A DNA stretch of 64,000 nt, from contig NC_060259.1 in assembly GCF_921293095.1 (NCBI RefSeq), positions 5,518,001 to 5,582,000 on the forward strand. Reading direction: 5' to 3'. Under the pieces are notes generated by a model. That model saw only the letters and a list, made by a program, of their open reading frames with translations. It made no database searches and was not told the origin of the DNA. The position numbers were made by a program, and so were the translations under genes. The DNA is from Ischnura elegans (Eukaryota > Arthropoda > Insecta > Odonata > Coenagrionidae). Shown in pieces: positions 4,346 to 59,731 of the stretch (positions within the stretch are counted from its first letter, which is position 1; each line of letters opens with the position of its first letter).

Positions 4346-4439
4346 TTTAAAGTAAAAATGCGTTACGGTGTAAAGAATAGAAAAAGAGCATAGTTGTGGT
4401 GCTTTAACTCCCAAAGCCTGATATATACTCATTGATGTA

Positions 4440-34731: not shown

Positions 34732-36788
34732 CCCTATTGGAAATTTCTTATAAGAAAATTTCTTATCAGAAATTGGACATATTTCTTATAAGAATTTTTC
34801 TTATAAGAATTTTTCTATAAGAAAATTTCTTATCAGAAATTGGGCATATTTCTTATAAGAATTTTTCTATAAGAAAATTTCTTATCAGAAATTGGGCATA
34901 TTTCTTATAAGAAAATTTCTTATAAGAATTTTTCTATAAGAAAATTTCTTATCAGAAATTGGGCATTTTTCTTATAAGAATTTTTCTTATAAGAATTTCT
35001 TATCAAAAGTATCAATTACAAAATGTTATTTATTAGAAATTTTCTCTTGGAAATATTTATTATAAATATCATATCATCATGCTTAAAACACTTGTGCAAA
35101 CTTCTATAAAAAGCTACATGAGATTTACATCCCTCCTGAGAGTACAAAGTTAGCATTATACCTAATTTTTTCCAAATGAAGGTGCCTATATCTGGTACAC
35201 AGCAAACCTAATGATTTCCCATGTACCAAATGTAATGTCTATCTTTAGTGTGCATCAAGCAAGGACATTCAAGTTCTGTAAAGTTCACCTGACTGGCCAG
35301 ACAATGCGAGATACCATAGAGGTCCTTCAGGTCATGGGTTCTGCATAGGGTTAACGCCCCCCACATTTTAAAACTAAAAAACTAAAAGCAATGAAACCAA
35401 CGATATCCTGGAATGATGGACTGATAATAGAATATGGCTTTGGCAATCACTACGCAATGAAATATAAAGGAATTGCAATATGGAATGATTTAACCTGGAA
35501 AATTGAAGAGGCAAATGAAATAAAATTCAAGTTCGACTTGGGATACTTCAAGAAATTATTTGGGAAGGAAAAGGAAAAATTGATAAATCGAATACATTTT
35601 TGTTTGTTTATTTAAGTTTTGTGTTTATTTAAGATACCAGAGAGAATGACCTCTACATGCAGATTTGGATAGATAATGAAAGAAATAAATAAAGTAAAAT
35701 GGAATTTGATGCCATTTGGAGAAAACGATAGGTAGAATATGGCTAACAATTGGTGCAAGATTTAGGGAAATTAATAGGAATCCCAGAAACACTGATTGAG
35801 AATAATAGTTGATGTATTTTCCATAAAATAATAATTGTGCAGAAGTTATTTAGGTTTACTCATACAAATTCATTCTCTCCAGAGACGACTAAATCACTCA
35901 CTTTGTCCATTGAAACACTGTTTTCATTAAAACTTCCACTTATATTAGATATGTCACAATCTGAAAAATATACAAGTCTATCTAAATTAATGATGAAAAG
36001 TTTAAAATTCCACGAAACTGTTTGTTTAAGGTGACATGATTTTAGGAATGCCAGTTTTGTAAGACTTACCAAATGAGGTCAATGCCTTATTTTTGTTAGA
36101 AGCACACGACTTATTTCATTAAACAGGTCACACAAAAACATGGTGAATGATTAACATATAAGAGCAATACCTAACAACCAAACAAGGTTTCCATGGCAAC
36201 CGTATCCTGCAACGTATGCAATCGTAGTATACATCGTGCTTATTCATGGCCCATATCAAACTTCCATCGGTTAAGTAATCTATAGACTCGAAACAGACAG
36301 ATTTTATAAGTGTACAATTTTTCGTGTGCTCTTAGGGATATATATTAACAAGTCTCATAAGAAGAAGCCTCAATTTCTTGGAACCATTTATGTCAAATAC
36401 CATGCTGAAAACGCCAATAAATTAGCAGAACATTACTTAAAAAGAGTTATACATTATTTCCAAAAAAATCTTATAAGAATTTCTTAAATAATTGTAAATT
36501 GCCAACATAAGTTATGGTGAGTTAAATGCATGCCGGATAAAAACCTGAAAGTTATGTGACCTGCGCAACATTCTTATAGAATGCTATAAGAAATGCAAAG
36601 TTCTTATAAGAATTTCTGTAAGACTTATAGAATCCTATAAGAATTTCTGTAAGACTTATAGAATCCTATAAGAATTCTGTAAGACTTATAGAATTCTATC
36701 AGAATTCTGTAAGACTTATAGATATCTATAAGTCTTACAGAATTCTTATAAGAATTTCTGTAAGACTTATAAGAAATTTCCAATAGGG
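34732..36788. mobile_element. CCC-type element A (word TTCTTATAAGAA), AA duplication
   Basis: Perfect inverted ends CCCTATTGGAAATTTCTTAT continue AAG, and AA is duplicated at 34730-34731 and 36789-36790. Removing the insert restores the copia frame. Left end 34732-35010 and right end 36555-36788 are built from TTCTTATAAGAA / CTTATAAGAATTT and relatives. The 1.5-kb interior has open frames at 35391-35615 (+) and 35860-36072 (-) that I do not recognise. Confidence 0.9.
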
Positions 36789-36844
36789 AAGAGCTTGGTA
36801 TGAATGCCTTGATGAATTTTTGGCAAATTTAGGTTTTAAAAGAA
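36789..36844 (+). pseudogene. Copia RT sliver between elements A and B
   Basis: It encodes RAWYECLDEFLANLGFKR, the RT step normally directly after '..YGLkQSP' in copia pol. Only these ~54 bases of host element remain between two independent insertions 56 bp apart. Confidence 0.95.
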
Positions 36845-37769
36845 CCCATACAAAAAAATCTGTGCTGCGACTGCACTAAATCTGCACTGTAACTGGACTA
36901 AACTCTGTGTTTAGCACAGTCACAGTACACTTTTCTGTACTAGACTGTACTATGGCAGCTATAATTTGAGAAGAACTGTACTGTAACAGTGCTGGATCAC
37001 TGTGCTTGAACTGTGCTAGAGCTCAGACTGCACTTTGACTGGGCTGGGTAACATGACTGGAGCTGTACTATGGCTCAAACTGGACTGTGACTGGGTTGGG
37101 TAACTGGACTGGAACTGTACTATAGCTCAGACTGGACTGTGACAGGGCTAGAAAACATGACTGGAAGTGTACTGTGGCTAAAAGTGGACTGTGACTGGGA
37201 TGGGTAACATGACTGGATCTGTACTATGGCTCAAACCGCTGCGACAGGGCTGGACTTAAACTAGTCATTGACAGGAGAAAGTATTTCCTATATTATTTCA
37301 TATCACGATCAACTATCATTTCCATGAGAATATGAATGCGTAAATTATATAAAAATTTATGTTGACATTACCGCGGCAATGCATAGCTCCAGCTTGCTTA
37401 TTATTTTGGTAAAGTATGGTCAAAAGAACAACTTCCGCCGATACTCAGCCATCTTTGTTGGTGTTGAACCGGTTGTAACATTCCTTGTTTACGTGCTCTC
37501 ATCCTTTTAATTCTACGCTGTACGATGGATGCGTCGATGTAAGATCGACGCTAAGAACATGAAGAAGTGAACTTTACTTCAATTACATCAAAATTAGCTA
37601 CTTAGCCGGGAATTTTTCTTGCGGGTGAAGTGATATCGTCGATTTTTGCTGAAATCCGTGTGGTTCGCGATGAATCAACTTTCCACGATTGATTTTGACG
37701 ACTCGCAATCTACTCCTTGCGAAGCACGAGAGAGTTGAAAAAAGACATATCTTTATTTATACTCTGCTG

Positions 37770-37990
37770 CTGGAGGTAAGTACTCAACTTATCTAAAATT
37801 AAATTCAGACAAACTTAAACAGTCAAATTTTGAAGTAACACTTGATTAGATATCAGTATGTAATGTGTTTTCCTTTTAATTTCAGGAAGGAAGCCAAAGA
37901 GGCAAATGAATTGAGCGGCCATGCCTTAACAAGACTTTCATTTTTATGTTTATAATCATGAGTACATGTATTTGTATTTAATAAATTTCT
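37770..37990 (+). other. Possible short spliced transcript of element B
   Basis: Donor CTGGAGGTAAGTAC at about 37773, acceptor TTTTAATTTCAG ending about 37886 and AATAAA at about 37980 form a minimal two-exon unit. The second exon reads through ..GGCAAATGAATTGA and has no meaningful frame. It is either a non-coding transcript or the outer shell of a gene whose coding exons were lost. Confidence 0.3.
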
Positions 37991-39152
37991 TTTATTTTCA
38001 TATCTTATTGTCATTTATTGTGCTCCACGGCGTTAGTACTGAAACTTCATCAACAAAAACTATCAAGGTGGGCATATTTGTGGCAACTAGACAAATAGCA
38101 CTGACGTAAATTTTGGTGGTTTTTATGTTGAGTGCCCGTTGATGTGCAGAATAGGATTTGTCAATTTTTCTCATAGAACCTAAGTGCTTCGATAGCAATA
38201 TTTTTAGTACCATAAACTTTGTTCATATTAACCCCTATGAAAAAATTGTATAAAACCTGTATAAAATTGTATAAAAATTTTGTATACATTCTGTATAGAA
38301 TTATATACAAGTTGTGTACAGTCTCTATACAGATTGTATAAAATCTCTATACAGATTTTATACAGTCTGTATACGTTATATACAAAAATGAGTGTATACA
38401 ATTTGTATAAAAATATACATTTTATACAAATTATATACAGGCTGTATAAGAATTGTATATGGGCTGTATACAATTGTATACGGGCTGAATAAGAATTGCA
38501 TACGGATTGTATGAAAGAAGACCTACCCTATGAAAAAATTGTATAAAACCTGTATAAAATTGTATAAAATCTCTATACAGATGTTATACAGTCTGTATAC
38601 AAGTTATATACAAAAATGAGTGTACATATACAATTTGTATAAAAATATGCATTTTTACACAAATTACATACACGCTGTATTAGAATTGTACACGGGCTGT
38701 ATAAGAATTAAACATGGACAGCATAAGAATTGTACATGGGCTGTATACGGGCTGAATAAGAATTGTATACAAACTGTATGAAAGAAGACCTAGGAATACC
38801 TCATCCAAAATAGGTGGAGTAATACTACACATTTTCTTCCTCATTTCATCTCAGGTCATAAAGAAACACTCATAAAAATTATTCCAACAGACCATTTCCC
38901 TTACCACACTTCCTCTAGGAACCCACATGCATACAAAGGCATAAATAAAAATGGAGTGAATGCTGTCCAAAATATAACATTATAATCCTTTAAACATTGT
39001 TAAACTGAAAACTAACCAACCATTCAATACCAGATTTTTAAATGATAAATAGGGGATTCTCAAGTTAAACAGTGGAAATTAAGAATAGCATGTAATTAAT
39101 TCTAAGTAAAACATCACTTACTCATAAAAAAATAAACGTCTACAAGGTACTT

Positions 39153-39775
39153 CCCACACAGCACACGGACACCTTTAACACACGTTTAGGTTAGGACTGA
39201 ATTTCGTTCGATAATAGTATCTAAATAATAGGTCCAGACAAGAATTTAAATAAATTAGGCTTCAATTCCATACACAATATTTATTGGGCTTCTTTGGTGA
39301 AATAATACAACACAAGAAACTACATAAGTATTATGTACTTAATTTTCTTCTCCCCCTGCAACCGTGTTGTTGCTGTCACTTGGCGTGCCTTAGTGAGTTT
39401 CTAATAGCCACCTCCACATCTTTTTCAGGGACTGACATGCTCTCCTGCACTGCTACTTTAGTAATGAAGTATATAAAAATTTCATTGTAGCAAGAAATTG
39501 TCTCTTGTAGGTAACAAGCAGATTACATAAGACAGGAAACTAAAGTCTTATTAGTCTCGTGTTTAACATTCTTAAGGTTTCAAAATTAGGAAACCTGTCC
39601 ATTTTAGGCCGTAAACATTTTAGAAACTTTTCTTTGGATTTTTCTTCTTCTTAAAAAAGAAAAGATTTTAAGTAAAAATATTAATACATTATATATTTAT
39701 AAATGAAAGTTATAAAATATACTAGTAATACATATATGTATTATAATTAAGAACATTTTTCCTAGAGCAATTGTT
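39153..39775 (-). mobile_element. Fragment of the E family (D)
   Basis: It starts CCCACACAGCACACGGACAC preceded by TT, as E does at 52897, and aligns with 52897-53608, lacking most of the GGACATCC word region. Minus strand near 39457-39376 encodes AVQESMSVPEKDVEVAI, then RNSLRHAK and a stop, the counterpart of the E exon at 53322-53213 with W replaced by S and a premature stop. Homology ends at about 39775 and no matching right end is present. Confidence 0.75.
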
Positions 39776-39950
39776 GCACGACAGATCCGAACGACAGAAT
39801 ACAACGAACACAAAACTAAAATGCAAGAATTTCCAAATGAATTGCTGCTACAATATTTTAAAACACCACTTTGTCCTGTACATCAACATCATGAAGCCAC
39901 TTTTAACTAGAAATTACGTCCAAAGAATTTCAGGGAGGAAGGGTACATAC

Positions 39951-40109
39951 CTTAATGTTTTCCGTAGGGGTGAAATTGTCTCTTCTTATCGCCAAAATAC
40001 ACTTCTTCTTCAATCCATGAAGATCTATAGGAAAGGTAAAAACTTGAACTTTGGGTCTAGTCCTGAAGGGGTTTCCTTCGCATACCGGCACCACACACGA
40101 GAAAGGCAT
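39951..40109 (-). CDS. First exon encoding the N-terminal half of a THAP domain
   Basis: From ATG 40109 the frame reads MPFSCVVPVCEGNPFRTRPK, VFTFPIDLHGLKKKC, then AIRRDNFTPTENIK and meets a splice donor (ATTAAGGTATGT, exon end 39951). This is a well-preserved first half of a THAP finger: the Cys pair, 'FTFP', a basic helix (Trp replaced by Cys), and the 'P...' turn just before the expected VC..HF on a next exon. The next exon was not found in good state. It lies in element C, next to the D fragment, and may be the start of C's own transposase. The DNA-binding role comes from the family. Confidence 0.55.
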
Positions 40110-40555
40110 ATTTAACAAAAATGCCTCACAAACAAGTTTCTGAAGCCCACCGAATGAAATTAAAGAATAACGGAAACTTCACTATTCACAAAAACTCTAA
40201 TTTTCACCAACTTAACCACAAAAATCTAAGGAATATGGTGAAACAACGTAAACCACGTAATCTCCAACGGCGATCCTGGACGATCCTTCCGCGGGCTCTC
40301 TTTCTCGGTGGCTATGGCCCCATCCGCAAAAGAAAATAGTCCCACACCGGATATGAATTTTTTTATCCAGAGTATCCAGAAACGAAATGACTACTGTGTC
40401 ATATATTAAATCACGAGTTTTTAGGAAATTTGGGCGTATGTGATACAACTTTATCGCTGCATATGAATTTGTCAGTGTACTGTTTAAAACCTTCGTACCG
40501 CTTCATACAAACGGGACACGGGGACACTATGGAGATATGGACGCCCGCTGGTGAC

Positions 40556-41367
40556 ATTGAATCTTCCAAGTGGCATTGAATGACTAGCGTTGATGGATCT
40601 CCAAGACTCTTGTTTAAAACGCGATTCATGATCTTTAGAAGCAATTGAACTCTCGAATGTGGAACATTATTTTTGTCCCCTACTAAGTTCATTTTTGGAC
40701 TTAAATTTTTGACGCCTCGGTTGAAAATTTTCCAAGTGGCATTGAATGACTAGCGTTGATGGATCTCCGAGAATCTTGTTTAAAACGCGATTCATGATCT
40801 TTAGAAGCAATTGAACTCTCGAATGTGGAACATTATTTTTGTCCCCTACTAAGTTCATTTTTGGACTTGGATTTTTGACGCCTCGGTTGAAAATTTTCCA
40901 AGTGGCATTGAATGGCTAACATTGATGGATCTCCGAGAATCTTGTTTAAAACGCGATTCATGATCTTTAGAAGCAATTGAACTCTCGAATGTGGAACATT
41001 ATTTTTGTCCCCTACTAAGTTCATTTTTGGACTTAAATTTTTGACGCCTCGGTTGAAAATTTTCCAAGTGGCATTGAATGACTAGCGTTGATGGATCTCC
41101 GAGAATCTTGTTTAAAACGCGATTCATGATCTTTAGAAGCAATTGAACTCTCGAATGTGGAACATTATTTTTGTCCCCTACTAAGTTCATTTTTGGACTT
41201 GGATTTTTGACGCCTCGGTTGAAAATTTTCCAAGTGGCATTGAATGGCTAACATTGATGGATCTCCGAGAATCTTGTTTAAAACGCGATTCATGATCTTT
41301 AGAAGCAATTGAACTCTCGAATGTGGAACATTATTTTTGTCCCCTACTAAGTTCATTTTTGGACTTC
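40556..41367. repeat. 166-bp tandem array with alternating variants (~4.9 copies)
   Basis: Unit length is 166 bp, with landmarks TTAAAACGCGATTCATGATC, TTGAACTCTCGAATGTGGAA and GACGCCTCGGTTGAAAAT. Units alternate between a type with GACTAGCGTTGATGG..TTAAATTTTTGAC and one with GCTAACATTGATGG..TTGGATTTTTGAC. The array therefore grew as 332-bp dimers. On the minus strand each unit has the same 63-codon open frame, probably a by-product. It lies inside element C. Confidence 0.9.
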
Positions 41368-42169
41368 AGTTTTTGAGGCCTACTTTGAATTGCTGTTATA
41401 CAAATTGTATACATTGTGTACAAATTGTATACATTGTATACAAATTGTATACATTGTATACAAATTGTATATGCTGTATACAGCTGGTGAATTAATACAG
41501 TTTATACAATTTGTATACAATGTATACAAATTGTATACAACCTGTATAAACTGTATAGAAATTTTATACGGTTTTATACAATTTTTTCATAGGGGAAGGA
41601 AGTGGAACGTAACAAATTCAGTGAGTGTCTGTTAGGAATATGGTTTATCTTTCCTTAATCTAGTCAACATTCGAATGAGTGTAGGTAGTCGTTTTGGCCA
41701 CTGTTATCTCTTTGCTGTTTTCTGATTGGATCAGGCAACCAATCTTCAAACACCCAAAAAGGGAACTATATATCTCTGCTAATTGTCCTATCTTGATTTA
41801 ATTCTGCTTCTTGTTTTCAATAAGATATACAGGGAATGCAATAGCCACATCAAGACTCAATTATTGATTCATGGAAAGAGTATTACAGTAAAAACTGTGC
41901 TATGGCAGCTGCACTGTGGCTGTGCTATGGCCACTGCACTATGACTGTGCTAAGGCAACTGTACTCTGACTGTGATATGACAACTCCACTGTGACTGTGC
42001 TATGGCAACTCCACTGTGACTGTGCTATGGCAACTGCACTCTGACCGTCCTATAACTGTACTGCGATGTTTCAATTCAAGTGCAGTTTAAGTAGAGTCAC
42101 AGTACAGCCCTTTCAGCACAGTTACAGTGCAGCTTTAGTACAGCCACAGCACAGATTTTTTTGTATGGG

Positions 42170-43178
42170 AAGTGATATTGATTCCTGCTTATATTCTCTT
42201 AGAAATGGAAAAGATTCTATTTATTTATTAATTTTTGTTGATGATTTATTAATTTGTGGTGCAAATAAGAAAGAAATACAGAAAGTTAAAGTCTTACTAT
42301 CTGAAAATTTTAAAATGAAAGATCTTGGGAAAGTTAAAGAGTATCTTGGGATTACCATTGAATATGAGTCCCACAAGCATGAATTGAAATTAAATCAAAC
42401 CAAGTATATTGATTCATTGGTTAAGAAATATAATTTAGAAAATAGTAAATTGTACAATACACCAATGGAAGTAAACTTAAAAATTGAGAAGGCGGATATC
42501 TGTGACAAAAACATTAAATTCAGAAATTTAATTGGTGCCTTATTATATATAAGTTCAGCTACAAGGCCTGACATAAGTTTCAGCGTTAATTACTTAAGTA
42601 GATATCAAAATTGTTATAATGAAACGCATTTTAAGTATGCTTTAAGAATTTTGAAATATTTAATTTTAACAAAGGATTTGAAATTATGTTACAAAATGAA
42701 TGATTGTGTAAATATTATTGATTGTTATGTTGATGCTGATTGGGCAGGTGATTATTTGGATAGGAAATCCACAACAGGTTATGTTATAAGATTATTTGGG
42801 AATGTTGTATATTGGAAATCGAAAAAGCAAAAGTCTGTGACGAAAGCTTCAACTTTTGCAGAGTATGTGGCTTTGTCAGAAGCAGTGAGTGAATTAAAAT
42901 TTATAAAAGAGTTATTGAGTACATTTGATGTACAATTAATAAAGCCAATGAAGGTTTATGAAGATAATTCAGGTGCAATTGATATTGCAAAGTATGGTAA
43001 TTTTACTAAAAATTCAAAGCATATTGAGGTACACTACCATTATGTGCATGAATGTGTTAGGGAAGGTATGATTGATATTGTCAAGGTAAATTCAGAGGAT
43101 AATGTTGCTGATGTATTTACTAAATCCTTGTGTCGTCAAAAGTTTGAAAGTTTTCGAAATGTGTTGGGTTTGAATTAG
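42170..43178 (+). pseudogene. Copia polyprotein, RT end and RNase H
   Basis: After element B the frame resumes SDIDSCLYS, then the RT active site LLIFVDDLLICG, KMKDLGKVKEYLGI, and GALLYISSATRPDISFSVNY. RNase H follows with DCYVDADWAGDYLDRKSTTG, the AEYVALSEA motif, EDNSGAIDIAKYG and KHIEVHYHYVHECV. It ends with the usual VADVFTKSL close and stops at 43178, 29 bp before the 3' LTR. Catalytic residues are intact. Any start upstream of 42170 belongs to element B. Confidence 0.95.
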
Positions 43179-43207
43179 TGTAAGTGCAATATAGATGTAA
43201 GGAGGTG

Positions 43208-43490
43208 TGTTGGATATATGTGTGGTACATCTATATTGCGCAAAACTGTTGATGCGCATGCGCACGTTGGTGTGCGCACGTTGGTGTACGCACGTTAGTT
43301 GGCGGGAGAGCCAGTCGGTCAGTCTCTCGCAGTCACTCTGTATGTGTTGGTATGTGAGCCTGGTGTGTTACCATGGGCCCAGGGGGCCATGGTGTGTAGC
43401 AAGGGAATGTATTTTCTTTGTTGGCAATAACGCCCAATTACTTAATCAATTAAGTTTTACTCAAATCTGTTAACCCGAGAAACCTGGACA
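43208..43490 (+). repeat. Copia 3' LTR
   Basis: 283 bp, preceded by the purine tract TAAGGAGGTG. It differs from the 5' LTR by two fewer 14-bp GCGCACGTTGGTGT units and about three substitutions. One of these turns the AATAAA of the 5' copy into AATAAC. Confidence 0.95.
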
Positions 43491-44156
43491 GCAATTACAA
43501 ATAATTGCTTCATTTGCATTTAAAAATTATATTAAACCGTGGATTTATATAATACGCTTTGAAAATCTCGTTTAGGAAATCAGCTGATTGTTGTTGTTTT
43601 GATATTATCACAATGGCTTCAGGCAGGTGGGATTAGGCCATACTTTTACTGTTATAATGATGATTTATCGGGCATAAATATTGAATCATTTACCTATATC
43701 CGATCGGTCCTTTATCGTGAGATATATGTTATGCGAAATAATCATTGAAACCTAAATATGTTTGATTTTCTTCGTAATTGTCTTAGGCTTCGAAGTCTGT
43801 CTGTTCGTTGCATGTCAAAATAAATATGTACCAACTTTTATTGCTTTGATCGTGACGATATAGCTTTACTGTATGAACTAGAAGCTTTCGTTTCTAATAC
43901 TAGCTTTATATTATATGACTCCGTAATTTCAGTATTCATTCTCTGTTTAGCTTTATTCAAGGTAGCAGACATGTTGGACTATGAGTTCTTGTTAGCACCG
44001 TGTGTGGCGCTCCGTGTCGCTGGATAAACACAAGGACAAGGACGCAAGATGCAACGATAAAACCTCAGGTACCACAACGCGCTAATATTGCAACCTCTGC
44101 CGTCTACTGCTCCTTGCTGCTTTCATAAAAAGGTGAGTTATCAATTTTTTATGCGA

Positions 44157-44720
44157 CTTACATTTGTTTGCCATACGTAATCTTATAAATGTGACCTCTA
44201 CCGTGAGGTTCGTGATGTCATGAAAATGGCCGAAGGACGCCATTAGGTAATAGCGCATTTGTAGTTCTATTATTCATATTCTATTCTGTTATCCTTGGGA
44301 TTTTTATTGGATCTAAATTTATAATTTCTCATCTGTGTGATATAAATACTTAATATACAGCTGGGATTCGGCGGTATTCGTCTTCGGTTCCACTTCGACG
44401 CTATCTTCGTCCGGTGATAGGTATATTTTTCATAAATCTTTGAGCGTCAAAATTCCAAGTACCCTTTAAGTAACTATGTTAAGGTTCTTGGCTGATTCTA
44501 TGGTTTCAATTTGCTTCGATTTCGATTCACATTTATTTATCATACGTAGTTAACTTTACAAATGTGTTGCTTTCCCTGAGGTCGTGGCGTCATGAAAATG
44601 GCCGAAGGTTCATTGTCAGCCTTCCTTTTTCTTAGCCATTGCTAAAATATAAAATATTCTACTGTTTCATCCACTGAGTTTTTATTGGCTCTTAATTCAT
44701 TATTGCTCATCCGTGTGGTT
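44157..44720 (+). repeat. Diverged ~370-bp tandem duplication
   Basis: 44157-44350 and 44525-44720 share CATACGTA, a TGAGGT..GTG.TGTCATG block, GTCATGAAAATGGCCGAAGG, TTTTTATTGG and CTCATC.GTGTG.T. About 75% identity indicates an old duplication. Confidence 0.6.
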
Positions 44721-45189
44721 TAATTACCACAAGTAGAGCCGTTATTCGACGCAATTCATATGTTTGCCGGGAGATTTATTTGTGTTATAATTTTGGGCGT
44801 CAATTGGTGACTTTATTGGGCTATTTGGTCCGGATTTTTCAATTGATATTTTGGAGAATCAAGTATATGAGTGCTAGTGTGTAGCATGTTGCCACGACGA
44901 TTTAACGTCGCTGTTAATATGCTCGTGAATGGTTAACAAATGAAAGCTTTTTTCGTTGCTGTTATTATCATTTGTTACGGTGATATTTGTTATAATATAA
45001 GCTAATTACATTTCGTTAATTTCGTAGTAACACTCGAAAGTAATCCTGATAGAAAGGTGTTAATTATTTTTTTATTTACAATCTCGTGCCAAGGTTTTAT
45101 GAATTTTTAACCCACATTTTCATACACACATATATACCCTTGAATGGATCCAAAATAAGTATTGTAAATTACTTGATTACAATATTGAG

Positions 45190-45441
45190 AAAATACTGCA
45201 GAAAGACCCAGGATGCTATAGATATGTGCATTTATTGAATTTGCAAGCTCCCTCAAATCGTAGAAGACAAATTGGAATGTTCAACTTAAATGGCATATTG
45301 TTGGATAAGATCAAATTCACTGATTTGTTTTCTTTTATAACTTTTAGAGTTCCAAACATCAATACAAAAATTTCGCCCCATTTTTGTGTCCATTATTACC
45401 TGCCATCGAACTACACCAAAACACTGCAATTTATGTTGTAA
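45190..45441 (+). pseudogene. LINE ORF2 C-terminal fragment
   Basis: The frame reads QKDPGCYRYVHLLNLQAPSN, RRRQIGMFNLNGILLDKI, then FSFITFRVPNINTK and stops at 45441, followed within 20 bp by AATAAATTTG. The order 'LnLp.l..RR...d...L..il...id...l...i.FrvP' is typical of the end of non-LTR retrotransposon ORF2 proteins of the jockey/CR1 type. Nothing of the RT domain precedes it, so it is a 5'-truncated scrap. Confidence 0.45.
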
Positions 45442-47074
45442 TAAATTTGATCTCTCTCATTCTTCTTCCTCAAGTTCTAAGAAATATAAATAAAATAATG
45501 TAACTGTGTGATATATCAAAATGTTGCTCTCTGTCAATATAAACTTTTTTTTGCATTTATCTTTTTCTTGAGTATAGATTTAGTAAAAATATCATCAAAT
45601 TAATTAAACACTCAAGTGTACTCATTTTAGAGAAGGGTGGGTGGAGATGGACTCACTACTTGTAGCTTAGTCTCATCCACATGAGAATACTATGAATAGG
45701 ATTGGAGGCAAGACTGAGGCTGGTATAATGAAAAAGTATTTTCTGAGGCATGCTCACTTATGAGCCAGCAAAGGTCACAGCATACTCTAGAGTCTTCTTC
45801 TCTGTTAAATATAGAAAGTTCACGGCAAGAGGATTGTTTCCTGATGATTAGGACATATTTCAGTTCATATATATTTAAGAGTTGGTTAGATTTCAATATT
45901 ATATGTAGGGTCATCAGCCTTGCTGCAAATGACTGTACTTTTTTAATTGGTGAGGTACTAGACGTGCTCCTCATATTTTTAATAAAAAAATATTCTGAGA
46001 TACTAAAATACCATTTCTTATATATATCACTGTGTCTCGTTTTCTCTTGTGAATATTGATCTAAGTGATGGCATGACATGGTGTAAAGAAATAATTTTGA
46101 GACCATATATGTAATCATAAAAATGTTTTAATGTGTCCTTTGCATTTATAAATCTAGGAAGCTCCATAGGAAACATTGGTTACGGTCGTTTGATGGAGGA
46201 GGATAAACATTCAAAGCTGGCTGATATAAGCTGGCCGTAGGAAGGAGTCTGGTGAAATGGGTATAGACCATACTCTGTGGCGTGATGTGGAATACAGGTA
46301 CCAAATACTTATTCAAAAGTTATATCTCAGGGAGGGAGTTGGCACTTAGTTTCACATGATGCCTAAATATTGTAATATAAAATTGTTTGTTAGACCAGTT
46401 TGCACCAGGTTCCATATTTTATAACTTTTTGTTGTGTTCATCATGGCATCTTTGTTGGAACGCTTACTAGTTGTAGGCTTTGCAATGTCATTCGTCATTG
46501 CATGTGAAAAAGATTGTTCATATGCTATAAGTATTGCTTCTGCATTAAAAGGTATTAGCACATAAATGAAGTGATTGATAGCTTTGCTACTTCAACAATA
46601 ATAATGATTTTTATTTTTTTTCAGGGATGAATTGGCATTGATGAGTGCTAGTACGAAGATAAAAACATGTTAGCATGGTATGGTAGACCAGAACAATTTT
46701 GACTCCTTAAGACATTTAAATTTATGATTTTTTACATATTTTGTTACATTTTTCATTTAAGTACTTGAAAATTAATTACAATTTTGTTTACCTGCATGTG
46801 TTCCTATATACTCTTTGATACTTTGACACTTTGATACCAATTTCATAGGAGTAGAAGTCCTAATTATTGAGTGTTGCTTTCTGTCCCTTCTTAGATTTTA
46901 TTTTCAGTCACCTTGTGGTTTTTGCGGAGGATATGTCAATTCTAGGGTTTCTTTGAAATGAGATGGGCTTGAGTAGGTTCCGGGAATGACTTGGGTGTTG
47001 AATTAGGTCGCGAAGTACCACCAACAGGATTTTCGTACAGCTCTGATAAATTTAAGCTGGCTGTTTTTTTGGAT
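45442..47074. other. No recognisable gene
   Basis: Open frames at 45690-46118 (-) and 45760-46059 (+) overlap one another and show no motif. 46561-46352 (-), with NAEAILIAYEQSF and KIWNLVQTG, could belong to the nearby pogo remnant, but this is weak. Confidence 0.3.
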
Positions 47075-47620
47075 TCAATTTTTTAAGCAATCCTTTGGGT
47101 TATACCCATAAAGATTCGAAGTTTCAACGCATGTCTTATTAAGATTTGCTGGCTGCTCATTGACAGCATCATAGTGTTCGTGATCAGTTTCGTCATTCAT
47201 TGATTCGTCAACATTCTCTGGGTCAATGATGATTTGTGTTTGAAAAGCTTTTTCAAAGATGAAGTCCACGTCATTGAACTCTTCCGGTATAAAGGGAAAG
47301 ATTTCTGCTACACTGAATCCTGAAACACCATTTTGCATTCTTGGGATCTTAATATACGCTTCATGAATGTCGCAACAAGGATGAAAGTTTTTTCAGGGTC
47401 AAAGTTATGTCGTTTACTGAAATCTTCTGGAGGTCATTAATCCATAAGGGCCTGTCCCACTGTAAATTAAACACTTTCTTGAGAGAATCATAAAAAAAAT
47501 CCAAAGGCTGTGATTATTCGGGGGTATAAAGACAACATGAACATGATTACCTCTATGGAATTCATAGCTATCAAGAGAGATTTGACTTTATGGTTGTCCA
47601 TAATCAATTACACATGAACT
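47075..47620 (-). pseudogene. pogo/Tigger-type transposase remnant
   Basis: Minus strand at about 47610-47500 reads SQISLDSYEFHRGNHVHVVF followed by IPPNNHSLWIFF, the 'DNH.SH.s........n...l..PPhtsh.lQPLD' step of the DDE_1 family. After frameshifts, 47338-47075 reads VSGFSVAEIFPFIPEEFNDV then DFIFEKAF, the family's C-terminal 'GFr.tGi.PfnpevF.d.DF'. The last catalytic Asp region is degenerate and stops intervene. Cut-and-paste TA-target transposase family; dead here. Confidence 0.6.
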
Positions 47621-48780
47621 TTCATAGTTGATTTTTTTTATCCATGAAATTTTTTAGCCTATCTGCGGAGAGTTCTTCATTTGCCTATCTGTTATCAGAG
47701 CATTAGTAGATTTAGTCTATCTGGGTTAGTAATCTTTTGTATCTTAAGGAGGCCAAATAACCGTGATGATGAAGGGTTAATATTGATAAAACTCTGTGGA
47801 ATGTTTGCACTATTTGATAAAATCATGTTTTTTTCTGCCTGTCAGTGGGAAGTAACAATTGTTGAGCTCTTGTTTCATTTGTCTCTAGTACATATATTAA
47901 AGATTCACAATCATTATCCTCATTGAATTGTTGACATTGTCATGGCACTCTTTTCACTCTTATATAACCAAACTGTTTCCTTTGTCTCTGCAGGTGATAG
48001 TATGGTCCTCGTGTTTACATAGAAGTATAATTCTTTTGATTGTTCTTTCTTTATTTGATGGTATGGGATCACGGGTATGGTTTTTCCTATTAATGAAGCC
48101 CTTTTTGTGATTGTAGATGCTACTGAGTATTTGATAGTGAGTGGTTCATTCCACAATGAAGTTTCACAGACCGACTGTAATTCACTAAGGATTTTAAGTC
48201 TCTTGATTGCTGGGGATGCGAATGAAATCTCATGTATGCTTCGTTTATTCTGTATTTCGTATGCTTTGTTTTGTATTCTGCCATTCACCTAATAGTGTCC
48301 AAATAAATTTTTCTTAAATTGAAGTGTCATTAAATTTTTAATCTGCATTTGAAAGGTTTTCCCATTTACTTGGTTGAAATAAGTCACCTAGCATTAGGTG
48401 GGCTTCTTCAGTGTTCACCATCATTAATGGGTGAGTTTTTCTGTGTAAGTCCTCATGCTTAGGATTGGTAAGCATTCCTCATCCATGAGATGTCGGACGC
48501 CAGTGGCAACCAAGGGGAGTTGGGTAAGTATGCATTGTTTGCCCCCTGGGGAGCAAAATCAACCACTTGGGATATTAATTTAATAGTTCGGGGGAAGTTA
48601 GTGTCTATAGGGTCTAGATCTATAGAAACTTATAGTTCCAGGATATTTTTAGTTGACCTCTTAATTGTAAGTTTAGGGGGTTGCATTGATTGTGAATTCT
48701 ACTACTTGCTTTCATTGTATTAAACACCATATCACATTAAATGGTGCATTTTGAGAGGATCACGTTTGTTTACAGGAATA
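47621..48780. other. No recognisable gene
   Basis: A 122-codon open frame at 48288-47920 (-) is basic and could be further decayed transposase, but I recognise no block. 48490-48723 (+) likewise shows nothing. Confidence 0.3.
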
Positions 48781-49023
48781 CTGAAGGACCTTCTTCCAAT
48801 GAAAAAACATAGCGGTACAGCCTTCGAAATGCACCACTTTAAATGTACTCACTGGTAAACTACAAGCTTCCGCTTTTTATGCATTCGGGGTCATAGGTGG
48901 TTTCTGGTGATAGTTCATTGAATTTACTAATCTTTTTGGGTGAAAAATTAAACTGTCATTCAACAGAATATATTATTAGGTTATATAGATCACCCTATAG
49001 ATACTTCATGGAATTTGCATTTT

Positions 49024-49146
49024 GGATGAAAAAATTGAACTTTGTTATTCCACAGATAAAAAATTAAACTTTGTAATTCCACAGAAATCAGTATAATTGC
49101 AAAGTTTAATTTTTTGATCTGTGGAATAGCAATGTTTATTTCATCC
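49024..49146. repeat. Hairpin with ~52-bp arms
   Basis: Left arm 49024-49078 (GAACTTTGTTATTCCACAGA inside) pairs with 49095-49146 (TCTGTGGAATAGCAATGTTT inside) with few mismatches. The loop is about 16 nt. Confidence 0.75.
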
Positions 49147-49170
49147 TAATCGTTCAGGTTCGAGTAATTG

Positions 49171-49226
49171 TCAAGAGCGACCTATCGATAAGTCAATATA
49201 TATCGCCAAGAGCGACCTATCGATAG
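49171..49226 (+). promoter_or_regulatory. Duplicated DRE-like TATCGATA promoter motif
   Basis: CAAGAGCGACCTATCGATA occurs twice, with the TATCGATA core at 49183-49190 and 49218-49225. The core matches the DRE, a core-promoter motif of Drosophila housekeeping genes bound by DREF. Further CGAT-rich words follow to 49250. It lies 60-100 bp before a GC-richer stretch and could drive transcription of element H or be a repeat end. Confidence 0.4.
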
Positions 49227-49329
49227 CTCGATATAATCGACCAATCGATTTGGCTGCAGCGATAGTACTGCCAACTAGCGGCCATATTTGAAAGTAACTC
49301 AATGTTGCGACGGTGGCGTCGCCCTCGGG

Positions 49330-49524
49330 AATCGTGGTACTACGTGGGACCTATGGAATAATATACGGATAATACTCGTGTATACACCAGAAATAGCGGA
49401 CATAGTACCGGAAATACACCGCAATTACACCAGTCCTACACGAGTAGAAACGGGATATACTCGAGTTTTTACCCGTGTTTTATCACGATTTTACACGGGT
49501 TTCGCACTGCTTGTGCTGTATGGG
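49330..49524. repeat. CCC-type right end with ACACGGGT/ACTCGTGTA word (H)
   Basis: The end reads ..TGCTTGTGCTGTATGGG, so its inverted start would be CCCATACAGCACAAGC, close to CCCAGACAGCACAA of F. About 190 bp inside are built from ACTCGTGTATACACC / TTTACACGGGTT words. AA follows (49525-49526), and copy 3 shows the empty site GCATTAATGATG. The left end is not present. Confidence 0.7.
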
Positions 49525-50486
49525 AATGATGTACATGGATATTCCATTAAACGTTTGTGGCGAATCATATTTGTTCGGAAACTTTATTGGTGTTCGGAGA
49601 AATCCTTTGTTTTCAAGCAAGTAATTCAAGTCGACTGCCCGTGTTATAAGTTTGTAAATTTTAAGTTTTAATTGTAGAAGGTAGCGAGTAGTGGGGAAAA
49701 TAATTTCGACTCGTTGCATGTATTTGTATATACTGTCCAATTGAGGAAATGAACGGCTGATCAAAGTATATGGTATTATTATGGTAATATATGGTTTTCA
49801 TTGAAAGCTATAACTATTATTACATTTGGCGAGTTAGTGTGTTCACACAAGCTTGAAAATTTTCAAGAATCGACCTGATAGCCTACATTGAGGATATTTT
49901 TAGTAGCAAGTCAAGTGATGAAATAAAATTATGAGTTGTAAATATGAATAAAACACGGAAAATTTGGGCTAATCGTAGTAATTCTTTGCATTAATTGTTA
50001 TTGTTTTCGTACTGTCGATGAAGCAAGCTTGAGCTTCATATATTAAGCTCGAATGTTAATTTCTAACCAATTCACTTAACTAGTTAAATATTCATCACTT
50101 ATGCTACTATTATTTAATTAAAATAAAGCAGATAACATTTTATTTTTGGCTATTATTCCATTTTTCAATGCTTGATTATGTTACTTTAACCTCAGAAAAA
50201 CAATTCGACATCGCAATGCGCACGTCTGGGTTGCAATACCGAATAGCTCGGCCTCGAAGACCGCGTAATATTATAGCAAGCCTACCGGTTGCAATTCGCC
50301 GTTCAGAATAGTGAATTGCTACGGGCCTATGCTATTCTGAGAATTACGTCTTCCGGTGTAGTAAAAACACGAATTGCAACCGTTCTGAATACCAAATAGC
50401 ATAGGCGTTGCAATACGCTATATTATAGCAACATCGGTTGCAATATCGGAGAATAGCATAATGCTATTCCATCCAGAATAGCAGCC

Positions 50487-51386
50487 TAAGAATACCCCTC
50501 AATTTGCACAATTTTCATGCTGAGAAAGGCATGATTTAAAAAGTGACAACTTGATTCTTGAAATACCATAGTATGTATTTTAATTTCTCTAGAAGTTCAG
50601 AGTGGAATAGGCAGTGTCAAAAGCCTAAGTAATATCATAAAGGGTTAATTTTTATTCTAATACTCATTAACAGGGCACGTATGAGTTGCCGACCATGCTT
50701 TTCAATTTTCTTAAAGTCATAAAACAACAAAAATATCTTGTGCTCAAGCAATTACTACAAAATTTGTCTTTGGGACCTACATTTATAGGTTTGTTCCTTC
50801 ATGTAATGGGCTGTCATATCAATACATAGAGAAGTTCATGAAAAAAACATTCCAAAGGGAGCAACCATTTTTCAAGCATCAAAAACTACCTATTTCAATA
50901 CAAAGCCAGATTAGATATTTTTCAATTCAAGGATGATTTTCTCATTATATTGAGGAAATGTATAAATAAATTTCCTTTCTTTTCCATTTAAACCAATCAA
51001 GTAGTTACAGAGACACTACAATTCAAATTTGGGCATGTTGACTTTCTGCAAGAACAGTAGAAGTCCATATGGAAAAGAGAAAATTCATCAGAATAATTAA
51101 AACTCGGGACAAAAAAATAGTAACTTGGAGATAAAACATTTTAATAAAATGAAGAAGGCACATATCAGTATTAAATTAATATTATATGAGCTACAAATAT
51201 ATTATTAAAATCATTAATCAAAATTATGAACAAATATATAAATTTTCATATTTTAATCACAGTTAATCTTGTGACAGTAATAATTTTTGGTGCACCAAGC
51301 TGTGATCATTGAACATCACTGCACATTCCCAAAACATTGTGCATTATCAATACTGTATCACAACAATCCTTCACATATGTTTCCAA
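50487..51386. other. No recognisable feature
   Basis: AT-rich spacer between copies 2 and 3 of the GGCTGCTATTC element. Confidence 0.35.
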
Positions 51387-53212
51387 GGCTGCTATTCTGG
51401 ATAAGCGTTGCAAAAAATAGCATATGCTATTCTTCGGGTCATTATTGCAACGACCCCGTATTCAGAATGAAGCGTAGTAATAATTTTGTTCGGAATAGCA
51501 GCATGCTATTTCTTGCGCGAGCTATTAGGAAGCTCCGCCCCTTCCCGTATGAAAAACTTCCTGAACAGTTTGCGCAACCAATGAGGGAGAAGATATTTTA
51601 TATATTTTTCTGTATTTTATGGAATATTGACTTGCAATTACAAATAATTGCTTCATTTGCATTTAAAAATTATATTAAACCGTGGATTCATATAATACGC
51701 TTTGAAAATCTCGTTTAGGAAATCAGCTGATTGTTGTTGTTTTGATAATATCACAATGGCTTCAGGCAGGTGGGTTAGGTCATAATTTTACTGTTATAAT
51801 GATGATTTATCGGGCATAAATATTGAATCATTTACCTATATCCGATCGGTCCTTTATCGTGAGATATATGTTATGCGAAATAATCATTGAAACATAAATA
51901 TGTTTGATTTTCTTCGTAATTGTCTTAGGCTTCGAAGTCTGGCTGTTAGTTGCATGTCAAAATATATATGTACCAACTATTATTGCTTTGATCGTGACGA
52001 TATAGCTTTACTGTATGAACTAGAAGCTTTCGTTTCTAATACTAGCTTTATATTATATGACTCCCTAATTTCAGTATTCATTCTCTGTTTAGGAAATGAA
52101 GTAGGTGGCAACGTCACCGCTGTGCTTTCATGTAATATGATGGAATAGTATCAATATTTCAGCTGCAGATTTGGAAAAAGCAGAGGGATGTGATGGTGAA
52201 TTTGAGGATGGATGGAACAACTGTGAAAAAGTGAATCGTGTGGAAAGTGCTGTTGTGTCACTTATTATTGTTTTCGTATCAGCTGATTTTAATATGCTCA
52301 CTGAAATTTTTGATAGACCCTGAACTGTGCCGATATACTGAAACTTGATTATGTGAATAACTTACTTGCCTATAGAGGAAACAATTTGTATTGAATTCCA
52401 CATGATATATATTGCATTAATGATGTACATGGATATTCCATTAAACGTTTGTGGCGAATCATATTTGTTCGGAAACTTTATTGGTGTTCGGAGAAATCCT
52501 TTGTTTTCAAGCAAGTAATTCAAGTCGACTGCCCGTGTTATAAGTTTGTAAATTTTAAGTTTTAATTGTAGAAGGTAGCGAATAGTGGGGAAAATAATTT
52601 CGACTCGTTGCATGTTTTTGTATATACTGTCCAACTGAGGAAATGAACGGCTGATCAAAGTATAAGGTATTATTATGGTAATATATGGTTTTCATTGAAA
52701 GCTATAACAATTATTATATTTGGCGAGTTAGTGTGTTAACACAAGCTTGAAATTTTTCAAGAATAGACCTCATAGCCTACATTGAGGATATTTTTAGTAG
52801 CAAGTCAAGTGATGAAATAAAATTATGAGTTGTAAATATGAATAAAACACGGAAAATTTGGGCTAATCGTAGTAATTCTTTGCATTAATTGTTATTCCCA
52901 CACAGCACACGGACACCTTTCGGACATCCGGTGATTGTCCGCCAAGTGGCCTATGGACATCCTACGGACAGCCGAATTCATACAAAATGATGTCCGCTGC
53001 AAGTCCGCATGTCAGTAAAAAAGGTGGCCTATGGACGACCTGAAATTGTCCGCTCTGGACACCTTCAGGACACGTTTAGGTTAGGATTGCATTTTGTTCG
53101 ATACTAATAAATAATAGGTCCAGACAAGAATTTAAATAAATAAGGCATCAATTTCATGCACAATATTTATTTGGCTTCTTAAAACAGTACAATGCCAGAA
53201 ACTACATACGAT

Positions 53213-53322
53213 TTATTTAACTTTCTTCTTCCCCTGTAACCTCTCCTTGGCGTGCCTTAGCCAGCTTTGGATGGCAACCTCCACATCCTTTTCAGGGGCT
53301 GTCTTGCTCTCCTGCACTGCTC
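53213..53322 (-). CDS. Terminal exon, C-terminal '..W..HAK.R' motif (E family)
   Basis: After an acceptor CATTATTACAG the exon reads AVQESKTAPEKDVEVAIQSW, then LRHAKERLQGKKKVK and stops at 53213. The short helix 'e.a.iqsWL.hAk.Rl.gkk' is, as I recall, the usual C-terminus of arthropod DUF4806 proteins, whose function is unknown. The decayed D copy at 39457-39376 and a second exon at 54787-54684 are homologous. Four of the flanking codons are lysine. I could not connect upstream exons with certainty. Confidence 0.5.
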
Positions 53323-53639
53323 CTGTAATAATGAAGTATATAAACATTTCATTGTAGCAAGAAATTGTATCTTGTACGTAACAAGCAGATTACATAAGAC
53401 AGGACGCTACAGTCTTATTAGTCACATGTTTAACATTCTTAAGGTTTCAAAATTAGGAAACCTGTCCATTACAGGCTGAATACATTTTACAAACTTTTCT
53501 TTGACTTTTTCTTGTTCTTAAATAAGAAAAGATTTTGAGTAAAATTATTAATGTGTTAGTAATGTATATATTATGATTAAGAACATTTTTCATAGAACAA
53601 TTGTTGAACTAGATTTTAATCCCAAATATGAGAAGACTG

Positions 53640-54680
53640 TTGCCTGTTAGACCCTGGTGCACCATCTAGAAAAAAATTCTTTGATCCATCCTTGCCAGAC
53701 AGCTTAGTAGAGGTCTCGAAAAAGATATTGGAAAAAGCATTCAAATGGAGGATAATATTTCTGAACAATTGGTCTCCCCTTGAAGATTATGACTACACTA
53801 GAGTGAATTGTGGAGGTGAAGAAAAGTGTTACATAAGCTGGAGCTAAGGAAGACTAATGCAGAAGAGCTGAATATGATATAGGAGTAAAGGAAACTAGAA
53901 AATTTAAAGGAGGAAGTTTAAGTGAACTAGATCTCTTGGGATTAGTGTGAAAACAGCCACACTGATTTGGCACACAAACCACTTAGCTGCATTGGCCGAG
54001 ATGCAACTTAAAAAAATAGAAACTTTGAAAAACTAGCAAAAACTTGCTGTAGTTAAGGCCATTCCATGATTTAGATCTCCAAATTCTTCCAATCTTAATA
54101 ATTAAAATAGATCTTCTAATGTAGTCTGGTATCAAGGCAAAAGTGACAACCTAGCTCACTGGCAATATTCACATTTCGACAGAGACATAACAGGGGAATA
54201 GCAGCTAAGGCCTGCTGTGAGCTACTGAAATTTCTATAGCTCCTACAAAAACACCTACTTCAAAACATCTTAGTTAGCTAGAGCTACTAGAAAATAGTAG
54301 CTTCTGTAGTACTGTGCAACTACTATCCCTGTTGAATAAGTTATCCCATTCTTAAGTTCTACAGGTGCTATACATCGAACTTTTATAGAGCATGAGATCC
54401 TTTTCAACCACGTTTTTGGTAATTATAACTCCCATATGCAGAACAAAAATTGTTTTCAAATGTTTGAATTACTTGGTAGTGGAATCTGCATCTGAAAATA
54501 ATACATAACAATACTATTTTCTCTACCTTTAGCATGGAAGGGTGAACCTTGTATTACAAGATGTTTAATAATTATTTAAATTTACTTTATATGAGCTCCC
54601 TTTACAGGAGCAACTTGCCAAAAAAGTATCCAGACCAAAATTATTCCTCCTTGCTCAAACCTATATAATAATCAAACGAA
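53640..54680. other. Interior of E between terminal exons
   Basis: Purine-rich sequence at 53780-53960 on the plus strand, with no frame I can support; probably intron. Confidence 0.3.
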
Positions 54681-54683
54681 TAC

Positions 54684-54787
54684 TTACACCTCTCTCACAT
54701 GCCTCGCTTTAGCATGTTCCAGCCAACTCTTCACTGTAACTTCCACACTAGAATTGGTGGCTGTATCGTCCTGGTTAAATGCAACAT
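54684..54787 (-). CDS. Second terminal exon with the same motif (E family)
   Basis: After an acceptor ATTCTTTACAG the exon reads DVAFNQDDTATNSSVEVTVK, then SWLEHAKARHVREV and a stop at 54686-54684. It aligns with the exon 1.4 kb further on (..DVEVAIQSWLRHAKER..), so element E carries two alternative ends for one protein, or one live and one fossil end. Substitutions keep W, L, H-A-K and R, suggesting both were once translated. Confidence 0.45.
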
Positions 54788-54849
54788 CTGTAAAGAATGA
54801 AGACAAATAAGTATACAGACAATTATAAGAAGAGAGACATACAAACTTA

Positions 54850-56570
54850 TAAATAGAGATAGGAAATAAATAAAAATACAGATGAACTATTTTTATTCAA
54901 CTCCACTACATGAAAGCTATAGTCAGTAAATGCCTCCAGGTAAATATATCAGGTTCACGATACTCTACACCAAAATGTGTACCGATGGCTGTACGAAAAG
55001 ATGCACAAGTTCTATTTTCTGGGTATAAGATTTCATGCAGCAGTTTGAGCAAATAAATGAACCATAAAACATAGCCTTAAGGTTTGTTTACACAATATAT
55101 CACTTACAATTAGACCTTGTTTAGATTCATCCCGAATTTCTTACAGTCGTCCTATAGTTTCCACTAAATTAAATGCATGGATGACTAATAGCACAGTTAC
55201 TTAGTTTGTAGTTAAATTAGTTTATATTTTATTAGGTTAGCAAAGTTTGGCAGAAAAAATATAATAAACGCTATAAAAGTTACGTCGGCATTGTAATTTT
55301 TCAATCCCTAAGCCTTATCTTTACTGACATAATAGATCATTTATTTATTTAGGACCTAAATTTTTTTATTATTAACCTAGTTCCATCAAACAGATAAAGA
55401 GTATAAAAACTTTTTGTAAAAAGGCTAAACATTGGTGGTTATCCTATCATAACATTATTGTTCTTTTTCGATGCGTGCGTAACTATACATATCGAAAGAA
55501 ATCACACGGTGTAGTCCGATTTCAAAGAATTAATAATTTACGTGAAACCTATTAATCATACATGCGTGTTGCAAAATCCCCCGGTTACACGTAAGTACAA
55601 TTCCTAGTTATATTTATTGCCAAGAACCCTACTTGATTTGATTTAGGAACGGAACCAAACGGACCGTTGGGACTTCCAACAAATTCAGCCGTAGCCTACG
55701 CTATCAAAACAACAGGTTCTATTTTATGCGCTAGCACTTACATTATTTCCTATACGTTCTCGCGTACAGAGACTATAGTACAAGAACTTCCACTTTAAAT
55801 TATATCATGTAAACAAGGAACAAAAGCGAAAATTTCACCATGAACAACGGAAAAAGACGCTACCTTTAGTTGCCAAGTAACGGTTTTACCAAGACGGTAA
55901 TGTTGTTCCAAGCAGAGCCATATTTTTCCTCGAGATGTTACAGGCTGAGTTATAAGAAATATAAGGAGCATGCGGAAACACTATACTGCCGCCAGTGAAC
56001 GCCAAGAAAAAATTATTTAGAAGTCACATCAAACTTACTTGCAGCAGCATCTTTGTAACCGCCAAACCACCATGCTGTCTCCGGTGTTCCGTTCCAGTTC
56101 CTCTGTTGGAAAGGAGGAACGGAGGAATGTGGAGAACCATGGTAGAACACCTTCCTGAATCGCGGAGTAGCGGTAGATTCAAAATTCGTTCGCCACCAAA
56201 AAAACTAGAATTTCGATATAAAGTAAAGGTACGGCAGTACTTACCTTCTATCTTCTACTACTTCTTCTACTTGCCTATCCTTAAATTGGACAATTACAAT
56301 TTCTAATCTGGGAATGAGGCCATCGATGCCGTGATAATTTTAGGAGAATTCTTACCATTAAAAATTAAAATGAATTTAAAGCGTTATGTTTCATTAAAAT
56401 ACTTTCCAATCAATCGCCTCTGAGATTTTTTAATCCCTAGAGAGTAAATATTAATTAATCAATAAGTTGAAAGAGTTCATTTAACCTGTAGGAATGGAAT
56501 GTCCCCGAGACGGCTACGCGACGTCCGCAGGACATTGGTACATAATATAAAATTTCAGTAAAAATCGATA
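54850..56570. other. Interior of E, possible upstream exons
   Basis: A minus-strand block at 56250-56030 has a donor (GCTGCTGCAAGTAAGT, at its lower end) and one open frame ending WWFGGYKDAAAS. It may be an upstream exon of the minus-strand gene. I recognise no domain in it. Confidence 0.25.
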
Positions 56571-56579
56571 AATTCCATT

Positions 56580-56905
56580 ATTCCTGTTGTTAATTTTTGT
56601 AAAAGTTGCTAAATTTGTTTAAATTTAAGTAATTTTTATAATCATGAAAAGTACGGGTTTATTGTTCATCCAACGCTTCTCAACCGTACAACATGCGGAA
56701 ATTTTTAATTTTTTGAAAGTTTCTAAAATTGTTGCTAAATTTATTTAAACTTTAAAAATTGTTATAAATAATGTAGAGAGTCATAAGTTCGTTCAATTGT
56801 TGTTGTTTAACCCGTGAGGTATGTAGAAATTTTTAACGCTCGTAAATGTTACTTAAATTGTTGCTAACTTTGTTTAAACTTAATTAATTGTTATAAACAA
56901 TATAA
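56580..56905 (-). repeat. Inverted copy of the GTTAGCAAC repeat (E 5' region)
   Basis: Three units contain AAAGTTGCTAAATTTGTTTA / TTGTTGCTAACTTTG, TTATAA.CAAT and TTCTCAACCGTACAACATGC. On the minus strand these match the units at 3830-4345. Here the block lies within E, close to its right end. Confidence 0.65.
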
Positions 56906-57907
56906 AACTTAAAAATAGCGTACATTTGTTGTTCTTAAACTATAGAAGCGGTAAAAATGTCAATTTTTTTTTCGTTAAATAGTTTATAATTTCCTCCGAG
57001 TCCACACTCCAACAAGAGGATTACATTTGGTTACCTAAAATAATCCTCAAAATATCTCTTCCTCCACGAAAAATTTCCTCTTCCTCGATCGGGAGGAAGT
57101 ATTCTGGCTTCAGAAACGAGAGAGAGTTTTTTTTCTTTCTCCCTTCTCCTATACTCCCTACTCGGAGGAGGATCACGAGACTTTCTCTCGGAGTTCCTCC
57201 TTGAGGAGGTGAGTGTTTTAAGAGGAAAACAAAACTCCCAAACCCTGCGTAATGGGACACTAGCTGGACGTCCGCTGGACATCCGAGATAGGACAGTGTG
57301 CGGACGGATGGCCAGGACAGCCGGCGGATGTCCTCTGGCTGTCCTGAAAATCCGCGGACACTGAGAGGACGCGACGGACGCGCAGCGGACGTCCTCTGGC
57401 AATGATGTGCTGTGTGGGTTGTTTTCGTACTGTCGATGAAGCAAGCTTGTGCTTCATATATTAAGCTCGAATGTTAATTTCTAACCAATTCACTTAACTA
57501 GTTAAATATTCATCACTTATGCTACTATTATTTAATTAAAATAAAGCAGATATCATTTTATTTTTGGCTATTATTCCATTTTTCAATACTTGATTATGTT
57601 ACTTTAACCTCAGAAAAACAATTCGACATCGCAATGCGCACGTTTTCAGGGTTGCAATACCGAATAGCTCGGCCTCGAAGACCGCGTAATATTATAGCAA
57701 GCCTACCGGTTGCAATTCGCCGTTCAGAATAGTGAATTGCAACGGGCCTATGCTATTCTGAGAATGACGTCTTCCGGTGTAGTAAAAACACGAATTGCAA
57801 CCGTTCTGAATACCAAATAGCATAGGCGTTGCAATACGCTATATTATAGCAACATCGGTTGCAATATCGAAGAATAGCATAATGCTATTCCATCCAGAAT
57901 AGCAGCC

Positions 57908-59638: not shown

Positions 59639-59731
59639 TCACCTCTGATTATTTCAAAGAGACTAAATTCATAGCATCATTAAATATGGAAAACATTTAC
59701 CTCAATGTTTTCTGCAGTTGCAACGTCTATA

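Follow-up and report, generated by a model that had tools for sequence, protein, structure and literature searches.

The window analysed here, 64 kb of contig NC_060259.1 of Ischnura elegans, contains a copia gene interrupted by transposons and four complete elements, designated A, B, C and E, whose terminal inverted repeats (TIRs) all start with CCC and which are bordered on each side by AA (A, B and C) or TT (E). These elements, together with a further element D and a decayed E-family copy, E2, probably belong to several families of the animal CACTA lineage (TRC; CMC/EnSpm superfamily), as copies that are either non-autonomous or decayed. The four were first noted as complete CCC-ended elements in a sequence-only reading of this DNA, and their coordinates proved exact, with perfect TIRs of 23, 23, 26 and 13 bp, respectively. 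In the feature lines given here and below, coordinates are in window numbering and no strand is assigned unless one is stated.

34732..36788, element A, 2057 bp, 23-bp perfect TIR CCCTATTGG..., AA duplication, located in the copia reverse transcriptase gene
36845..42169, element B, 5325 bp including the nested element C, 23-bp perfect TIR CCCATACAAAA..., AA duplication
38232..41595, element C, 3364 bp, inside B, 26-bp perfect TIR CCCCTATGAAAA..., AA flanks
52897..57418, element E, 4522 bp, 13-bp perfect TIR CCCACACAGCACA, TT duplication

The insertion point of B was in the same copia gene as that of A, 56 bp past A. A scan of the window for exact inverted 13-mers located 80-7000 bp apart returned 326 rows, 68 of which had identical 2-bp flanks, many of them from word arrays (see below) and other repeats. 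Seven of the 326 rows started with CCC: one for each of A, B, C and E, two that were shifted or inner versions of C, and one from element F, a non-member described below as a contrast; none of the 25 identically flanked rows that fell outside the word arrays did so. Identical 2-bp flanks were present in 4/4 of A, B, C and E, and element F was without a 2-bp direct flank. Among 40 second-order Markov sequences, the mean number of inverted 13-mers was 22.8, including 1.6 with 2-bp flanks, and the combination of CCC with a 2-bp flank occurred 0 times in total. Looser tests, performed with 30 first-order Markov sequences, gave 5 rows for the window against a mean of 0.63 (maximum 3) for exact ends of 9 bp, 7 against 4.1 (maximum 10) for 10 bp with 1 mismatch and 11 against 9.8 (maximum 16) for 13 bp with 3 mismatches. 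Thus, the evidence is carried by the length and exactness of the ends, since looser criteria discriminate poorly from Markov sequences.

The 2-bp AA/TT duplications, also claimed in the sequence-only reading, were demonstrated independently for A, B and E and, in the case of C, are indicated by structure only. With A and B excised from the copia gene and one AA left in each case, the reverse transcriptase region read through as a single continuous frame (...LYGLRESPRAWYECLDEFLANLGFKRSDIDSCLYSLRN...), the other two frames of the restored gene being broken by stops. For E, which interrupts a repeat, TT was present once, at 50001-50002, in an empty site elsewhere in the window:

49525..50494, + strand, paralogous empty site of E, 97.9% and 97.6% identical to the two E flanks

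Since AA and TT together account for 22.7% of dinucleotides, the occurrence of AA/TT at 4/4 elements has a probability of approximately 0.003 by chance.

The sequence of the duplication bears directly on ISL2EU, which had been proposed as the first comparison. ISL2EU likewise has 2-bp duplications, and PIF/Harbinger, ISL2EU and Spy favour AT-rich targets, but the duplication described for ISL2EU is AT within A|AT|T (PMC4482050) as opposed to the AA/TT demonstrated for A, B and E, and that of the fungal 2-bp PHISTA group is TA (PMC12730594). Moreover, most autonomous ISL2EU candidates encode THAP and YqaJ proteins (PMC4482050), while neither domain was found in 30 frame translations of the present elements, which may be non-autonomous (the translations covered A, all of B but its 574-bp right part, C, the in-window part of D, and E). 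ISL2EU was rejected because of the difference between AT and AA/TT, and membership in this or another PHIS group is very improbable. Kolobok uses TTAA, and TTAA forms the left flank of C, where it precedes a CCCC tip. An origin from piggyBac-like or Kolobok-like elements with TTAA targets, with which the 5'-CC..GG-3' termini of piggyBac (PMC10045372) would also agree, is nevertheless barely credible given the right flank of C (AAGG), the left flanks of A, B and E (CCAA, AGAA and TATT, respectively) and a duplication of 2 bp; both candidates were rejected on the absence of a 4-bp TTAA duplication from the element flanks.

Each end of the four elements is occupied by an array of short words. The arrays, the boundaries of which were set by eye, are listed with the number of word matches and the number expected from dinucleotide shuffles of each region.

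34732..35010, left word array of A, word TTCTTATAAGAA, 16 matches against 0.4 expected
36566..36788, right word array of A, 5 matches against 0.2 expected
36845..37260, left word array of B, CTGTACTGTGGCT-like and non-palindromic, 13 matches against 0.7 expected, 14/15 words on the + strand
41890..42169, right word array of B, 13 matches against 0.5 expected, 12/16 words on the + strand and the outermost 4 on the - strand
38232..38795, left word array of C, word TTGTATACAA, 16 matches against 0.2 expected
41396..41595, right word array of C, 10 matches against 0.2 expected
52897..53080, left word array of E, word GGACATCC, 4 matches against 0.2 expected
57250..57418, right word array of E, 7 matches against 0.2 expected

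The orientation counts for B allow up to 4 mismatches in 14, and at the left end of C a module is duplicated in tandem and the TIR occurs a second time, at 38526. The words had been chosen from the arrays themselves, which accounts for part of their enrichment in them; comparison between families was the fairer test. In this comparison, the A word had 0 matches in the arrays of other families and the C word, which is common to C and D, had 0 matches outside the arrays of these two elements, while one stray match each was noted for the B word (in the right array of E) and the E word (in the left array of D). Matches in element interiors were also few, with 2 for the A word in A (0.2 expected), 1 for the B word in B (0.1 expected), 0 for the C word in C and 2 for the E word in E (0.9 expected). 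These results agree with the earlier description of family-specific arrays built from words that are unrelated between families, although least clearly for E. The accompanying description of the words as mostly palindromic applied to A and C, the words of which are perfect palindromes, and nearly so to E, but not to B, the word of which runs mostly in one direction at both ends. In a comparison with 300 random stretches of 5-34 kb, distinct 7-mers were fewer than in any of these stretches for the left and right arrays of A, B and C and for the right array of D, and their number was within the random range for the left array of D and the two arrays of E. Array lengths, as bounded by eye, were approximately 150-560 bp, those of E being short (169-184 bp) and the weakest.

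Word spacings were near multiples of 10-11 bp in C, D and E and less clearly so in A and B, from which no conclusion about helical phasing is drawn since tandem arrays yield such spacing trivially and the spacings are non-independent. Regular spacing is likewise expected of any tandem repeat by the view that the arrays are products of satellite-like slippage with no role in transposition, a view that is compatible with any superfamily and is also in keeping with the tandem structure of the arrays and the duplicated left module of C. Slippage alone is insufficient, however, because it gives no reason for the two ends of an element to share a word, as they were found to do, with few matches in the interiors, and this account of the arrays is considered unlikely.

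Two additional members of the group were noted.

1..4817, element D (inferred), left end beyond the window, right end at approximately 4817, ...CACTGGGGG
39153..39700, E2, decayed E-family copy in C, left TIR CCCACACAGCACA at 39153 preceded by TT

Arrays of the C-type word TTGTATACAA were present at 1-152 (5 matches against 0.1) and 4450-4817 (11 against 0.3), and the right tip of D, CCCCCAGTGAAAATTTTGTATAC when read inward, was by eye similar to CCCCTATGAAAAAATTGTATA of C; the two arrays presumably bound a single element. The E2 sequence from 39167 to 39685 was 84% identical to E in an alignment of 519 columns, and a right end of E2, looked for inside C, was not found. The nesting of C in B, of A and B in the copia gene and of E2 in C indicates repeated insertion over time. 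Other repeats were noted in the same elements. Five copies of a 166-bp tandem repeat with 96% matches lie inside C at 40560-41381, near the expected right part of E2, and D (3761-4129) and E (56587-56961) have a common inverted block that is 81% identical and partly an approximately 114-bp tandem repeat, and that may be either an inserted element or part of an interior common to both. A possible element at 58974-59636, with inverted ends GGGTGGTTTCCT and TA flanks, matches D in its right part (59427-59639 to 153-351 inside D, inverted, 78%).

The grouping of these elements by their CCC ends, their 2-bp duplications and arrays of words specific to each family, as advanced in the sequence-only reading, is thus supported. 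That reading matched the combination to no superfamily with certainty. The CCC tips and 2-bp duplications fit the described TRC lineage (PMC1636069, PMC4298943). Both of these features were found here, the CCC-starting TIR in A, B, C and E and the 2-bp duplication in A, B and E and, by structure, C. In published TRC elements, the TIRs of Schistosoma, Aedes and Tribolium begin with CCC, as in CCCAGTCAAC of Aedes and a 27-bp TIR starting CCCTAG of Tribolium, and 2-bp duplications were noted in 7/14 Schistosoma copies, three of which were checked against empty sites (PMC1636069). Hydra Spongebob, CCCAGCCAACATTGAC, was assigned to TRC from CCC and 2 bp, likewise without an intact transposase (PMC4298943). 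Consistent with these examples, duplications of 2-4 bp are given for CMC elements (PMC4482050). Those listed for CACTA miniature inverted-repeat transposable elements (MITEs), which are not decisive here, are of 2-3 bp (PMC7764229).

In comparison with SmTRC1 of Schistosoma, the Aedes and Tribolium elements and Spongebob, the elements described here are alike in CCC tip, 2-bp duplication, a TIR within 10-54 bp and the occurrence of several-kb elements with truncated derivatives, and SmTRC1 is also reported to have a region of tandem repeats and, inside its TIR, an internal repeat. They are unlike TRC, which is defined by a Transposase_21 (PF02992) gene, in that none was found in them, and also in their subterminal family-word arrays; a description of such ends for animal TRC did not appear in the literature found, which did not include Repbase and is no proof of absence in print, and the main text of PMC1636069 contains neither 'subterminal' nor 'sub-terminal'. 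Subterminal arrays of short words, in direct and inverted orientation and differing from one family to the next, are a feature of plant CACTA elements (Spm/En, Tam1, Tgm), which in contrast have a CACTA tip and a 3-bp duplication. The repeats of CACTA elements span several hundred nucleotides and include direct and inverted copies that lie close together (PMC8978399), a trait seen here and weakly so for E. They vary by family and are bound by TNPA-like proteins, with which they may co-evolve (PMC2613891). CMC MITEs of polydnaviruses and wasps and Ciona ENS1 belong to the same superfamily and have a 2-bp duplication but differ from the present elements in their CAC...GTG tips (PMC6004678). One CACTA copy with 334-bp TIRs and a different tip has also been described (PMC8504770).

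Several observations weigh against assignment of the elements to TRC. Neither Transposase_21 nor any other transposase domain was detected, and no Pfam family was above curated cut-off in the 30 frame translations, which gave one sub-threshold match, to ILCR1_N in B (E=0.1). Thus, TRC membership is judged from the ends, because no transposase was found in the elements. The bases after the right tip of D are AGG, or GAGG with a tip shortened by one G, rather than AA or TT. Tips in the wider CMCT group are mostly CA..TG in a recent treatment (PMC12730594), so the CCC tip is an exception that TRC makes. An AA/TT preference for TRC was not described in the literature found, which is no proof of its absence in print. 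Lastly, subterminal repeats have been reported in hAT Buster1 (PMC4298943) and are present in the following non-member, so word arrays are not proof of CACTA.

24576..25484, element F (contrast, non-member), ends AGCCCGTATGACAC..., TTA duplication from flanks, ATTGGCC-type words close to each end

Element F, which has a 33-bp perfect inverted stretch from 24577, resembles a non-autonomous PIF/Harbinger-like element because its TTA duplication and ends fit the TWA duplication and first base of A or G given for PIF/Harbinger (PMC4482050). With 2 mismatches allowed, AGATTGGCC-type words had 5 and 7 matches at its ends against 0.3 and 0.6, part of which fall in its inverted repeat. For the CCAATATTGG form, enrichment was seen at the left end (4 against 0.2), with no clear excess at the right end (1 against 0.2). 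Together with the repeats of Buster1, these findings suggest that word arrays occur in more than one superfamily and are diagnostic of none, and caution against use of such arrays alone to classify a transposon. Also present in the window are remnants of P-element-type transposase on the - strand at 20637-22475 and 23612-24397, with a 612-amino acid TNP-like open reading frame (ORF) and a separate THAP-domain ORF, and a 374-bp sequence at 33612-33985 with long inverted ends (TACCTTGTTCGCGAACTGAAGG...) and TA flanks, located at a break in the copia gene.

Two ORFs inside C and E had no Pfam match at E 0.01, and tblastn comparison between elements of 225 ORF pieces of at least 30 amino acids, with arrays masked, revealed no recognisable common transposase. 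The relationships detected by tblastn were those of E with E2, the E-D repeat block and a duplicated exon-like piece within E, besides weak short matches that included A with D over 14 amino acids (E 0.006-0.010) and D with E over 34 amino acids (E 0.003). The exon-like pieces, on the minus strand of E at 53203-53389 and 54690-54830, were 40% identical over 45 amino acids and are possibly alternative last exons of one putative gene, and the E2 copy in C had a stop within the region that matches them. Elements A-E look non-autonomous or decayed. The exact end patterns of A, B, C and E had 0 matches each in a viral contig collection.

An alternative is a superfamily not yet described, marked by CCC ends and 2-bp AA/TT duplications, that has converged on CACTA-like subterminal arrays. 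Points in its favour are the lack of a transposase in the frame translations, the AA/TT bias noted above and the fact that 481/6012 insect MITE families were without a superfamily in one survey (PMC5199201). On the other hand, both end features that could be tested, the CCC tip and the 2-bp duplication, are published TRC features, and a separate superfamily therefore seems a rather poor prospect. The elements are probably new families of a known kind of transposon and not a new system.

In the mechanism that we infer for members of the TRC lineage at this locus, a DDE (Transposase_21) transposase encoded elsewhere would cut at the CCC...GGG tips and the element would insert at AA/TT with a 2-bp stagger, while a second protein, a DNA-binding one that is specific to the family and comparable to TNPA of Spm/En, would bind the subterminal word array and join the ends. 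The tips would then be constrained by the transposase, and word and binding protein would change together between families. Such joint change of end and DNA-binding domain, as suggested in the sequence-only reading, is plausible, and a proposal of this kind already exists for plant CACTA (PMC2613891). More speculatively, and with little confidence on our part, one TRC-type catalytic transposase may serve several end families of a genome, while the choice of the family that moves would lie only with the word array and its cognate dimeric DNA-binding protein. If so, families would arise by swapping of word and binder on a constant CCC tip, and the transposon end would be modular. With four classes of word sharing a single CCC/2-bp architecture in 64 kb of the same genome, the co-change of word and binder, discussed for plant CACTA, becomes testable outside plants.

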